A stretch of DNA of 64,000 nt, from contig WPIO01000051.1 in NCBI GenBank assembly GCA_009760855.2, positions 92,001 through 156,000 on the forward strand. The letters are read 5' to 3'. Below are positions 3,359 to 34,369 of this stretch, piece by piece; within the stretch, counting starts at the first letter, position 1; each line of letters starts with the position of its first letter. The position numbers were made by a program, and so were the translations under genes. The stretch is from Cristatella mucedo (lineage: Eukaryota; Bryozoa; Phylactolaemata; Cristatellidae). The notes under the pieces are model-generated. The model saw nothing but the letters and a program-made list of their open reading frames with translations, made no database searches and was not told the origin of the DNA.

Positions 3359-3517
3359 CTGTTTGGCTCGCAGTTGCCGTATCTCGTCCTCCTGCCGCTC
3401 CCGCTCCTGCTTCAGGAGCTCCTCGGCTTCGCTCAACTTCCGGGCGTCCTCCGCTTCCTTTTCCTTCCGCTTCTGCTCGTACAGCAGCTCGCCCTCGGAC
3501 TTCTCTGCCTCCGACAT
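3359..3517 (-). CDS. First coding exon of a putative troponin T gene
   Basis: The exon starts at an ATG in good context (GCCGCCATCATGT) and runs 53 codons in phase 0 to a consensus donor (CAG|gtgaga). It begins MSEAEKSEGELLYEQ and is then almost entirely charged helix ending KQERERQEDEIRQLRAKQ. Troponin T anchors the troponin complex to tropomyosin; its N-terminal helix in protostomes has a similar Lys/Arg/Glu pattern ending in an EKQ or AKQ block (family knowledge, not an alignment). It lies downstream of the troponin I gene on the same strand. No later exon is in the window, so the rest would lie left of position 1. It could instead be another coiled-coil protein or a troponin I paralogue. 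The exon itself is convincing; its identity is moderate. Confidence 0.5.
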
Positions 3518-3796
3518 GATGGCGGCGGGCAGGCAACAATCGAACTGCAGCGCATCGAAAGTGCGCTCGCATTCCATTCCGCGAGCCTAGAGAGCCGGAG
3601 AGCGCCAAGGCAGCGCCGGCCGTTTGTTCCGACGCTTGTCTCTCGCACCGCAGTGCGTTAGCCGCGCCCCAGGGCGCTCGCTCTCTCTCTCTCTCTTTTG
3701 GTGGGCGTCGCGACGATAGTGCGTCGTTCGGGCCAATGTGGTTTTCAGTAGTACAGCGAGCGAGCCGGACTGAGCCGACTGCCGGAGGGTGAGCGC

Positions 3797-31900: not shown

Positions 31901-34369
31901 CCGCAATCTCGCCGCCGTCCGAAAGTCGACCGCCGGTGTCAGCAGACGCTGCTCGCAGACGCTGCTCGCAGACGCTGCTCGAAGACGGACGGGCTGGTAG
32001 CGGAGCGCCTGAGCGGAGCACCTGCGAGTTTCGCCTCGCTGCCGCCAGGCGAAATTCGTGGCCTCTTGGCCTGCTCTCCCGAGTCGAGTCCGAGAGCGCG
32101 CGGCGGCAGTACGGCGAATCGGCAATCAGACGCCGTTTACGTAACGACCCTCGCCGGCCGCACTGGCCGGGCGGGATTACGCCCACTCTCGGGGTCGCAG
32201 AGGGCGTGTGCCCCAACTTCCGGTGAATTGGCGTGCGGCGGAGGCGGCGGCGGCTGCCTCGTACCGGAGCTGCGCGAGAATTGCTCTGCCTTGACCAGCA
32301 GCGCCACGCTAGACCGCATCAGACAGGCTTAGTTAAGACTGCCTACGTCATTGCTGACGCCCCTTTGACTACCCATCGTCTTAGCCTTAGGCGGAGACGA
32401 GGCCCCAGCCAGCATTTGTAAGCCCTGCAGCTGGCAATCCTATGCTGCCTGCAGGCAGGGAGTGGGAGTGACGGGAGCCTCTGTGGCCTCATTCTTCTTC
32501 TTCATCTTCTATGTAAATGAGACTGCTGAATCAGCTAACCCACGCTTTGCTTTACTTAGATAAATGGATTAGGAGCGATGGATTAGACTATTAGGACGGA
32601 TAAATTAGGAACAGCTGTCGATGGGAAGCTTAGGCGTGCCTTTACCGTCGACCTGTCGGGGCACACTCGTTGAGAGTTTTTTCGAAGCCCTTGTCCTTGT
32701 AAGGAACGTGTGCTTCAAACTGTAGGAGAAGCCACGTAAACGCAAATGGAATGTCAAAAACCCTAACCAACTTGTGACTGGCTTGTGTCAGAAAGTACTT
32801 TACAAAAGATCAGTGCTAGGAGTGTAAGGAGCTGTAGCAGCTAGCTCTCAATTGGTAGAGCCGTGCTCTTGAGTTGCAAGCTAAATCAATGCATCACTGC
32901 TCCTCGCTGGCGCCAGCTGTCGCGTACAGCAGCCCGCCGCTCTGGCACCGCAGGCATCTCGCAGGCCAAGCGAGGTGGCTAGGGAACGTGTTAGCATTAT
33001 TTGATAACATTATTATTATTATTTATTAACCTTATTTGATTGGAATTCAGGACGCCCTAGAGCAACCATTTGACGCCAACCCCACTCCAAGCGCAACGGA
33101 GCCTCAGCGGCACCGGCGACGGCAAATTCCGAGAGGACAAAGTTAGTAGAGCAACCTTACCCTTTTACGCTCTTTAGATAGGCCAGCTCGTCACTCTCGT
33201 GGTCTCCTATGCGGGACGAGCGGAGCGGAACCGATGAACAGTGACCTCGACCTTGAGTTGGCGAGTAACCTTCGGCTGCGTGCATACATACGGCTATGCA
33301 GACACGTGCCGCTGGCGTACAGCCGCAATAAGAGAGTCTGGCAGGTAATTTCCTAGATTATTTCTTTGCGACAGAGTATTGCACAGATTTACGTTCAATT
33401 TTCTAACGCTATTTTAGTGAAGAAGAGCTTTAATAACGCATTCAAGGTTTGCGTAAGATTTGACCAGAATTCGTCGAATGAACTGCACCTATCGCCCACT
33501 GAGAGCATCTCTCGGAGTTTGCCCAAGAGATAGCACACATTGTACGCACGGCAGAATACCCCCCCCCCGATTGAACCTTTTCTTTTGGTAGCAACATTTT
33601 GGTATGGCGTGGAGCGCGCTGCGCGCGAAAGAAGTGGAAAGCTTCTTTCGCCAGGCTTTGTTCTGGCAAGCACGCCGTGGCAAGTTTCATCGGGCACTTT
33701 TGGGCAGGCGTAATAATCCTCAACTAATCCTAAAAACAGTAGTACTAAATATCATATTTATGTTATAATTCCTATCATTATTAAGATATTTATATAGCAC
33801 CCTTCGGGAGCTAAACCTCTTTTTAGGCACTCTGCAAATGCTGCAAAGGATTTTGCGTGCGAACGCTTGTGGACAGGTCAATACGCTTGCCGGCATTTCA
33901 CAAGCTCGCTAAGACTGCCAGCTTGCACTGCGACGCTCTTTTGAGACTCGATAGGGGTTACAGCGGAGCTTTCGCAGCGTCCTTGGGCATGGGAAGCAGT
34001 CGGCCAGAGCAGTGCTGGGTGCTCAGCGCTGCTCTGGCCGAGCGGCACTCGCACGCCTGACGCTGTGCGCACGAAGCGGAGAGCGCTCGGCGGAGCAAAG
34101 AAAAGCCCAGCGGCCCTAGCGGCAGAGGTCTGAGCCGCCGCCGCCTCTCGCGCCTCAAGCGCCTCGCTCTGCGCAGCGACGAGGTGGAACGCGAGGGCTC
34201 ACCTGTCGTAATTTGCCTGTAATAATTTGCGAGCAGACGTATTTAGGCACGCAACGACGGCGCTAGCGGCGACCTATGCAATGGCGGCGGCGGCGACGAC
34301 GCGTAGCACTCACGCTTCGGCAGCTCGGGCTCTCCTCCGTGCTTCGCGGCGTTCGTCGACAGTGGACAT
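25772..34369 (-). CDS. TnI: Troponin I gene, eleven coding exons
   Basis: Troponin I is the inhibitory subunit of the thin-filament troponin complex; with low Ca2+ it blocks actomyosin. Exons (minus strand): 34369-34314, 28747-28618, 28510-28388, 28246-28019, 27711-27649, 27513-27427, 27111-26991, 26682-26582, 26423-26380, 26187-26146, 25904-25772. They sum to 1128 nt, 376 codons, with every phase agreeing. Domains: variable N-terminus (1-103); Arg/Glu/Gln-rich helix (104-200); troponin C/T-binding helices with GLGGLSPEKRK, KAAEEMR and LEDEKYELE (201-303); inhibitory and switch region with INELTLKVNDVKGKFVKP and KKISKTESK (304-332); C-terminal part with FRTELKSTGKSKYALDDE. The long N-terminal extension resembles molluscan troponin I; arthropod and vertebrate proteins are usually shorter. 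A LINE sits in the first coding intron. The final exon is unresolved. Confidence 0.9.
25975..26090. repeat. 18-bp tandem repeat and (CCG)n in troponin I intron
   Basis: Three copies of an 18-bp unit (GGCGCAAGCACGCCGCCG) are followed by CCGCCCGCCG-type repeats. It lies in the intron between exons 11 and 10. Confidence 0.9.
26146..26187 (-). CDS. TnI: Troponin I exon 10 (inhibitory peptide, second half)
   Basis: 42 nt between TTTCAG and AA|gtaata; encodes VKPVLKKISKTESK. Reading through the donor gives an immediate stop (TAA), so splicing failure would truncate the protein right after the inhibitory peptide. Confidence 0.9.
26380..26423 (-). CDS. TnI: Troponin I exon 9 (inhibitory region, first half)
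   Basis: 44 nt between TTTAG and TT|gtgagt; encodes INELTLKVNDVKGK plus the first two bases of Phe. This block is one of the most conserved in protostome troponin I. Confidence 0.92.
26582..26682 (-). CDS. TnI: Troponin I exon 8 (coiled coil with troponin T)
   Basis: 101 nt, acceptor GCTGCAG, donor GAG|gttcga (weak +3 to +6). Encodes ELDRLCKQIHDKIAHLEDEK and YELEQKVRKQDLE, the I-T arm helix. Phase 1 in, phase 0 out. Confidence 0.9.
26991..27111 (-). CDS. TnI: Troponin I exon 7 (troponin C-binding helix)
   Basis: 121 nt, acceptor TTGCAG, donor CAG|gtagga. Encodes KIIMEKAAEEMRIQAQKKLE and continues to QPLKLDGLG. The KAAEE and PLxLDG blocks are typical of troponin I. Confidence 0.93.
27427..27513 (-). 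CDS. TnI: Troponin I exon 6
   Basis: 87 nt, acceptor CTTTAG, donor AAG|gtaagg. Encodes ERLQKEKEAKKKGKKGLGGL and SPEKRKVLK. The GLGGLSPEK block before the troponin C helix is the clearest family signature in the gene. Confidence 0.93.
27649..27711 (-). CDS. TnI: Troponin I exon 5 (uncertain 3' end)
   Basis: Acceptor CTCTCGCAG; encodes EKEAEEQRKKEEAERLAKEE, then E. No GT donor fits the family sequence. The frame needs phase 0 and the best end is a GC donor (GAG|gcaaaa), or another GC three codons later. Either joins in frame to exon 6. Confidence 0.7.
28019..28246 (-). CDS. TnI: Troponin I exon 4 (N-terminal extension, internal duplication)
   Basis: 228 nt, acceptor CTGCAG, donor CGG|gtgagc. 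Encodes 76 residues of almost pure Arg, Glu and Gln, predicted as a highly charged helix. Residues 8-28 and 29-49 of the exon are near-identical copies of a 21-residue unit (QERRQxxEEQEQQRRR), so the exon has grown by a 63-bp tandem duplication. A Gln6 run follows. Confidence 0.85.
28388..28510 (-). CDS. TnI: Troponin I exon 3 (variable N-terminal region)
   Basis: 123 nt, acceptor GTGGCGGAG, donor GAC|gtaagt (consensus). Encodes EQRAASSVSREPLGDARRLH and continues to SEDDSSAKAASD. Not conserved in the family; supported by splice sites and by phase 0 agreement on both sides. Confidence 0.72.
28618..28747 (-). CDS. TnI: Troponin I exon 2 (variable N-terminal region)
   Basis: 130 nt, acceptor GATCCGCAG|C, donor CCC|gtgagt. 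Encodes GGGDATAAAAAPTEASERRS, then RRRRGDEEDSG and a Ser/Pro/Ala-rich end. The single leading base completes the Ala codon left by exon 1, and the exon ends in phase 0 as exon 3 needs. No homology support. Confidence 0.6.
28931..30522 (-). mobile_element. 5'-truncated LINE with target-site duplication
   Basis: LINE body about 28942-30511, flanked by the same 11-bp GCGGCGGCGCA at 28931-28941 and 30512-30522. The minus-strand frame (29310-30614) has reverse-transcriptase motifs in order: LLVLLDLSAAFDTIDH, YGVPQGSVLGPVLF and FYADDTQLY (catalytic Asp pair), then the C-terminal SRLDFCNTLLTGLP and RRSCHITPLLADLH. The C-terminus is disrupted by a ~75-bp local duplication at about 29331-29415. The 3' end has the family stem-loop and an (ATT)n-like tail. 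It lacks an endonuclease and cannot move alone. It lies in the first coding intron of troponin I, 184 bp before exon 2. Confidence 0.94.
30523..30900. other. Non-coding intron stretch
   Basis: The original CpG-rich DNA resumes after the LINE, then turns AT-rich near 30.66 kb. No exon seen. Confidence 0.4.
30901..30989. repeat. (CA)n then (TA)n microsatellite
   Basis: About 15 CA units followed by TATATA runs. Confidence 0.95.
30990..33774. other. Non-coding intron stretch
   Basis: AT-rich to 31.5 kb, then GC-rich with a 14-bp unit (CAGACGCTGCTCG) in three copies at about 31945-31983. I find no further troponin exon with matching phase. Confidence 0.4.
32838..32910 (+). mobile_element. tRNA-like head, decayed
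   Basis: AGCTCTCAATTGGTAGAGCC resembles the D-arm and A box of a tRNA, with a plausible anticodon stem after it. The B box is not recognisable. Probably a remnant of a SINE. Confidence 0.3.
33775..33860 (-). mobile_element. LINE 3'-end fragment
   Basis: ATATAGCACCCTTCGGGAGC followed by CTCTTTTTAGGCACT and TGCAAATGCTGCAAAGGA is the family 3' stem-loop on the minus strand. Only the tail remains. Confidence 0.7.
34001..34040. repeat. 16-bp hairpin, one mismatch
   Basis: Arms CGGCCAGAGCAGTGCT (34001-34016) and its near-exact complement (34025-34040) with an 8-nt loop. It is too short for a microRNA precursor. Confidence 0.85.

Follow-up and report, generated by a model that had tools for sequence, protein, structure and literature searches.

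A troponin I gene and a predicted troponin T gene lie head to tail at two loci of the bryozoan Cristatella mucedo

Do the genes for troponin I (TnI) and troponin T (TnT) lie side by side in this bryozoan, and, if so, how old might their linkage be? The question is raised by a 64,000-nucleotide stretch of the Cristatella mucedo genome (hereafter the window; positions 92001-156000 of contig C464, with strands given relative to the forward strand), in which a TnI gene lies near a short, charged open reading frame of 53 codons. The first-pass annotation tentatively attributed this frame to TnT, named its identity as the weak point, and proposed that, if it is TnT, the linkage may predate the split between protostomes and deuterostomes. 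With troponin C, the TnI and TnT families form the calcium switch of striated muscle, in which TnI holds actin off and TnT anchors the complex to tropomyosin. We report that further exons of a predicted TnT gene lie to the left of the window and that a second TnI-TnT pair, with the same order and relative strand, occupies contig C442 of the assembly (572,011,866 bases in 688 contigs). We place the probability of the overall reading, namely that the frame belongs to TnT, that the two genes are arranged head to tail and that descent from a tandem duplication, followed by copying of the pair, is the likeliest history, at roughly 0.8.

The 53-codon exon and the rest of the troponin T gene

The ATG-led frame, running from 3517 to 3359 on the minus strand, is present as first described and is followed by a phase-0 donor. 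Its affinity was assessed with a TnT profile built from 120 listed proteins of 694 matching ones in the database, the organism-named members being nematodes. On this profile, the fragment containing the 53-codon exon ranked first (E 4.3e-5) of the 2,426 fragments obtained by six-frame translation of the window, followed by a TnI core exon (4.6e-5) and by a polyglutamine frame (0.021). The exon scored 14.8 bits on the TnT profile and only 0.8 bits on a TnI profile; 2,000 sequences with its residues shuffled all scored lower on the TnT profile, the best of them at 9.4 bits. The alignment spans 51 residues without a gap and closes on the ...KQ with which that stretch of the profile ends.

The doubt about identity was answered in favor of TnT by the DNA to the left of the window and by a second locus. 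Some 10.7 to 14.7 kb to the left of the 53-codon exon (hereafter E1, the TnT exons E1 to E4 being numbered in order), on the minus strand of C464, we found further TnT exons, including an I-T arm exon and a last exon that encodes a SKYER motif and ends in a stop codon. Joined, the C464 exons score 117.1 bits on the TnT profile versus 16.2 on the TnI profile, and those of the homologous gene on C442 score 132.4 versus 17.9. The SKYER exons that end the two genes (PKVEVASKYERKLDRRTF... and PKISICSKYERQKDLRDF...) reach 28.8 (C464) and 29.6 bits with the TnT profile, as against 1.4 (C464) and 1.3 bits with the TnI profile. E1 measures 159 bp and E2 87 bp at both loci, all in phase 0, and 32 of the 53 residues of E1 are identical between them; at both loci, the phase and the homologous arrangement fit the predicted junction of E1 to the TnT core. 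Compared with invertebrate TnTs of the nematode mup-2/tnt type, the joined exons match in the coiled coil at the center, in the I-T arm and in the C-terminal exon of the SKYER type, and the segment before the arm reads RNFV in C442 and RNHV in C464. Relative to the database TnTs, the predicted protein lacks the N-terminal region, beginning at profile position 85, and ends 19 (C464) or 31 (C442) residues past SKYER. The gene may have alternative first exons.

Several observations weigh against assigning E1 and its companions to TnT. Searched alone, E1 gave no useful Pfam match (the best was TPX2, at E 7.2), no PDB match and, in the protein database, none of 30 candidates at E≤10; with composition statistics switched off, it matched the charged N-terminus of a TnI with 38.5 bits. 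Because of this last match, composition is a hazard for E1, and it is the contrast between the TnT and TnI profiles that matters. A search of phage records with E1 alone gave no match. The same failures, the TnI match and the charged composition of the exon would also suit an origin from some other coiled-coil protein, with the exon standing by accident between TnI and the TnT core. We regard this as hardly plausible, given the score that exceeds every shuffle, the common KQ end, the near-absence of a TnI signal and, at the second locus, a homologous first exon of equal length that precedes TnT core exons.

The remaining points against TnT concern the downstream exons. E4 discriminates weakly, with TnT/TnI scores of 52.9/41.6 bits on C464 and 49.8/48.6 on C442; E2 scores low on the TnT profile (7.1 bits on C464 and 8.2 on C442; the C464 exon scores -1.9 on TnI); and E3 of C464, the 3' end of which is uncertain, scores 1.7 bits on TnT and 2.4 on TnI. 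The predicted E2 of C464 ends at a GC donor (C464:84600), where the C442 paralogue has GT. Finally, the linker exon expected between E4 and the last exon was found at neither locus, in a search whose profile stretch also covered part of the preceding arm and in which part of the C442 interval was unreadable. All told, the assignment of the 53-codon frame as the predicted first coding exon of TnT is strongly supported. Downstream of TnT, a charged open frame (EIEEKRRALEERKRRLEEEAARLKMEEED) occupies C464:66719-66826 on the minus strand; its scores on the two troponin profiles are low, at 4.8 and 2.7 bits.

The troponin I gene and a second pair

The TnI gene that the first-pass annotation placed at 25.8-34.4 kb is indeed there, on the minus strand with its ATG at 34369, but its left end lies slightly further out, at a predicted stop at 25622. 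The joined 200-residue model matches the Pfam Troponin family PF00992 with 114.3 bits (cut-off, 26.2; E 6.6e-33); in a database search with it, 72 of 1,189 scored candidates had E≤0.001, including TnIs of flatworms, nemerteans, annelids and molluscs. The TnI of the window scores 242.0 bits on the TnI profile versus 21.7 on the TnT profile. The structures of this gene and of TnT were predicted from homology, AG/GT sites and reading phase. Seven core exons, from 27513 to the stop at 25622, encode 177 residues plus the stop and all have AG acceptors and, except for the last, GT donors. N-terminal exons between 34.3 and 27.6 kb, with predicted splices, are plausible. A tryptophan-motif search for the C-terminus gave no convincing candidate, and the short alanine-stop exon came from reading the sequence. 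Segments in common with lophotrochozoan TnIs (Owenia, Tubulanus, Physella, Elysia and flatworms) are GLGGLSPEK..LLK, IIMEKAAEEM and INELT.KVND.KGKF.KPVLKK.SKTE. In a TnI tree, the two TnIs of this genome did not group within the parasitic-flatworm clade and were placed, weakly supported, close to molluscs and Owenia; the second TnI entered this tree without one exon, and the filter was set to drop rows of ≤60 residues.

A search of the genome with the PF00992 profile, in which six candidates were scored, gave four matches, each over the cut-off: C464:82311-82520 (-), C464:118579-118689 (-), which is the TnI of the window, C442:9041964-9042071 (+) and C442:9065323-9065517 (+). On the plus strand of C442, TnI exons at about 9.033-9.043 Mb are followed by TnT, so that order and relative strand are as on C464; one TnI core exon was not found there. 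At both loci, TnI is thus adjacent to and upstream of TnT on one strand, as the first-pass annotation had it for the window, with a gap of 22.1 kb on C464 and of about 15 kb on C442. By simple arithmetic, the chance that a TnT would fall at random within 22 kb downstream of a given TnI, on the right strand, in 572 Mb is about 2e-5.

The equal order and strand at the two places would also be expected if the two pairs were haplotypes of one locus, or if the second were an assembly artifact. Against this, the two loci share 188 of 327 residues (57%) over ten matched pieces; the gaps differ in length; and the loci lie on two separate contigs, of 3.06 Mb (C464) and 14.4 Mb (C442). A cross-locus protein comparison was dominated by retroelements unless filtered. 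Between retroelement copies of the two stretches, identity reaches 93% over 205 residues and 100% in shorter pieces, and such near-identical copies argue that both stretches belong to one genome. We therefore give this explanation next to no weight and conclude from the predicted proteins that the C464 and C442 loci are diverged paralogues, not alleles.

The gaps were scanned in six frames against Pfam with stops read as glycine, a procedure that domain-less genes or very short exons can escape. In the window, the gap 3520-25621 (scanned as 3520-23360 and 23300-25621) gave no Pfam match at the family cut-off. To be set against adjacency are weak matches below the cut-off to DUF3915 (E 0.0032), Trypan_PARP (0.079), RVT_1 (0.0016), Bromo_coat (0.037) and CR_prot_dom_plant (0.022). 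The C442 gap (9043400-9058600) contains a reverse transcriptase above the cut-off (E 2.6e-12), together with a weaker partial match to one, and besides these nothing at E≤0.01.

Coordinates and surroundings

Table 1. Predicted troponin exons of the two loci. Positions without a contig name are those of the window; E1 to E4 are the TnT exons in order.
Feature	Position	Strand	Remarks
TnI first coding exon (MSTVDERREARRRARAAE...), predicted	34314..34369	-	ATG, GTGAGT donor; resembles Owenia TnI start MSDLEARREARRKARAERE
TnI charged N-terminal exon, 76 codons, predicted	28019..28246	-	Open frame, AG acceptor, GTGAGC donor; joining to neighbors tentative
TnI core exon 1 (ERLQKEKEAKKKGKKGLGGLSPEKRKVLK)	27427..27513	-	AG/GT sites; tblastn with database TnIs
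TnI core exon 2 (KIIMEKAAEEM...LDGLGA)	26991..27111	-	
TnI core exon 3, I-T arm	26582..26682	-	Ends ...KVRKQDLE/, phase 0; PF00992 match C464:118579-118689
TnI core exon 4 (INELTLKVNDVKGKF)	26380..26423	-	
TnI core exon 5 (VKPVLKKISKTESK)	26146..26187	-	
TnI core exon 6 (LAKYEKKNQDL...AEPE)	25772..25904	-	
TnI last coding exon, two codons (A, stop), predicted	25622..25627	-	AG acceptor, then GCGTGA in frame
TnT E1, first coding exon, 53 codons, predicted	3359..3517	-	ATG-led, phase-0 donor CAG/GTGAGA; homologous 159-bp exon at C442:9058670-9058828
TnT intron 1, first part, predicted	1..3358	-	About 10.7 kb in total; extends left of the window to C464:84687
TnT E2	C464:84686-84600 (window -7314 to -7400)	-	87 bp, phase 0
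TnT E3	From C464:84462	-	3' end uncertain
TnT E4, I-T arm exon	C464:82535-82317	-	Troponin domain match C464:82311-82520, 41.3 bits, over cut-off
TnT last exon	C464:80732-80640	-	SKYER motif, stop at C464:80640
TnT E1 of C442 (MSDADKSEAELVYEQKKKEKEAEDEKKF...AKQ)	C442:9058670-9058828	+	159 bp
TnT E2 of C442	C442:9061967-9062053	+	87 bp
TnT E3 of C442	About C442:9064370	+	
TnT E4 of C442	C442:9065293-9065514	+	
TnT last exon of C442	C442:9081655-9081783	+	SKYER, stop

A non-LTR-type reverse transcriptase frame of 461 codons lies inside a predicted TnI intron (29310-30695, minus strand), and a copy with about 93% identity across 205 residues sits close to the second pair on C442. Upstream of the TnI start, a plus-strand open frame (36747-37025) with a long run of glutamine codons is probably a CAG repeat. 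Blocks with a GC content of 55-68% (1-12000, 24001-30000, 34001-40000 and 50001-52000) alternate in the window with stretches of 42-52%, with the troponin exons in the GC-rich ones. Scans of the window for tRNAs and for Rfam families at the gathering threshold gave zero matches.

On the mitochondrial contig (C688), COX1 is open with the invertebrate mitochondrial code, AGR being read as serine and TGA as tryptophan. Both of its AAA codons (two in all) fall at positions that we take to be lysines, which speaks against flatworm code 9. Five partial COX1 matches lie off this contig (on C166, C83, C549 and C299); three are interrupted by an in-frame TAA or TAG, and all five resemble nuclear insertions of mitochondrial DNA.

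Age of the linkage

The three human TNNI-TNNT pairs each lie on one strand with TNNI upstream. A study of these genes describes pairs in jawed vertebrates, lamprey and hagfish, with TNNI1/TNNT2 and TNNI2/TNNT3 in tandem and SYT paralogues near each of the three vertebrate pairs (PMC9825255). TnI and TnT are regarded as sister families that split before protostomes and deuterostomes did (PMC9825255; PMC5888912). Our two genes have a phase-0 intron in common, which follows ...EKYELEQKVRKQDLE in TnI and ...EKYDLEEGVKRRQYD in TnT, at the same aligned residue, as would be anticipated for sister genes and in line with that view. As in the vertebrate pairs (TNNI1-TNNT2, TNNI2-TNNT3 and TNNI3-TNNT1), TnI lies beside TnT and the genome holds more than one pair. 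Among the literature matches listed, no title concerned TnI-TnT linkage in protostomes, subscription papers being thinly covered, so that this absence is no proof.

The proposal that the linkage may predate the split of protostomes and deuterostomes is compatible with the pairs here and in vertebrates, but no shared flanking gene was found. The published survey reports that TNNI and TNNT are not close in one amphioxus and one tunicate (PMC9825255), which speaks against an ancient linkage, as do our searches for neighbors. The best SYT1-like match in the DNA examined (156 kb of C464 and 100 kb of C442) was no better than E 0.15, and no convincing SYT- or PTP-like neighbor was found there. In the same DNA, probes for SYT, PTP, CSRP, Ras, troponin C and tropomyosin gave at most seven listed matches over C464 and C442, the best at E 0.028 (troponin C) and none convincing. 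Of 51 C2-domain matches in the genome, those nearest to the pairs are separated from them by about 300 kb on C442 and by 1.7 Mb on C464. No gene of the LAD1, LSP1 or CALD1 type, unlike in the vertebrate pairs, was recognized in the gaps by the general Pfam scans, in which no search by name was made. Flanking genes of the SYT type, as known from the vertebrate pairs, were thus not found, in a weak test: only the best candidates were scored, one exon at a time, and the contig C464 stops about 80 kb past TnT. These searches thus show no microsynteny with vertebrates.

These observations, and the statement in the first-pass annotation that wupA and up are not adjacent in Drosophila, lend something to the view that the genes became neighbors only later within this lineage, through rearrangement or through an advantage of neighboring, co-regulated muscle genes, that the pair was then copied, and that the vertebrate pairing arose independently. 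We consider this unlikely, though less so than the alternatives discussed above, since order and strand match those of the three human pairs, random adjacency is improbable even for one pair, a tandem start is natural for sister genes, and two chordate genomes are a small sample. Given that improbability, the pairing was probably inherited from a tandem duplication or kept by selection. The linkage seen here and in vertebrates is compatible with an ancestral pair, which is possible and not proven; we hold the chances of common descent with the vertebrate arrangement to be about evenly balanced. The fuller scenario, in which the TnI-TnT tandem would date back to the bilaterian duplication that gave rise to both genes, with separate losses in flies, amphioxus and tunicates, and would have been kept and multiplied as whole pairs in vertebrates and in this lophotrochozoan, could equally well be right or wrong.

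Based on the exons listed in Table 1, and supposing that they are spliced as drawn, we propose that the adjacency would on balance be a remnant, retained in this lineage, of the tandem duplication from which TnI and TnT arose, and that the TnI-TnT pair was probably duplicated later as a unit, by segmental or whole-genome duplication. By analogy with what is established for the two families, the predicted TnI and TnT of this genome would form a calcium switch with troponin C. The pairing is in print for vertebrates, and a double pair in a likely protostome makes the age of the linkage testable in chromosome-level invertebrate genomes, besides providing a second case of whole-pair duplication that is comparable with the vertebrate one. 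If the fuller scenario is true, sets of matched inhibitor and anchor for the muscle switch can be passed on, and can diverge, together.

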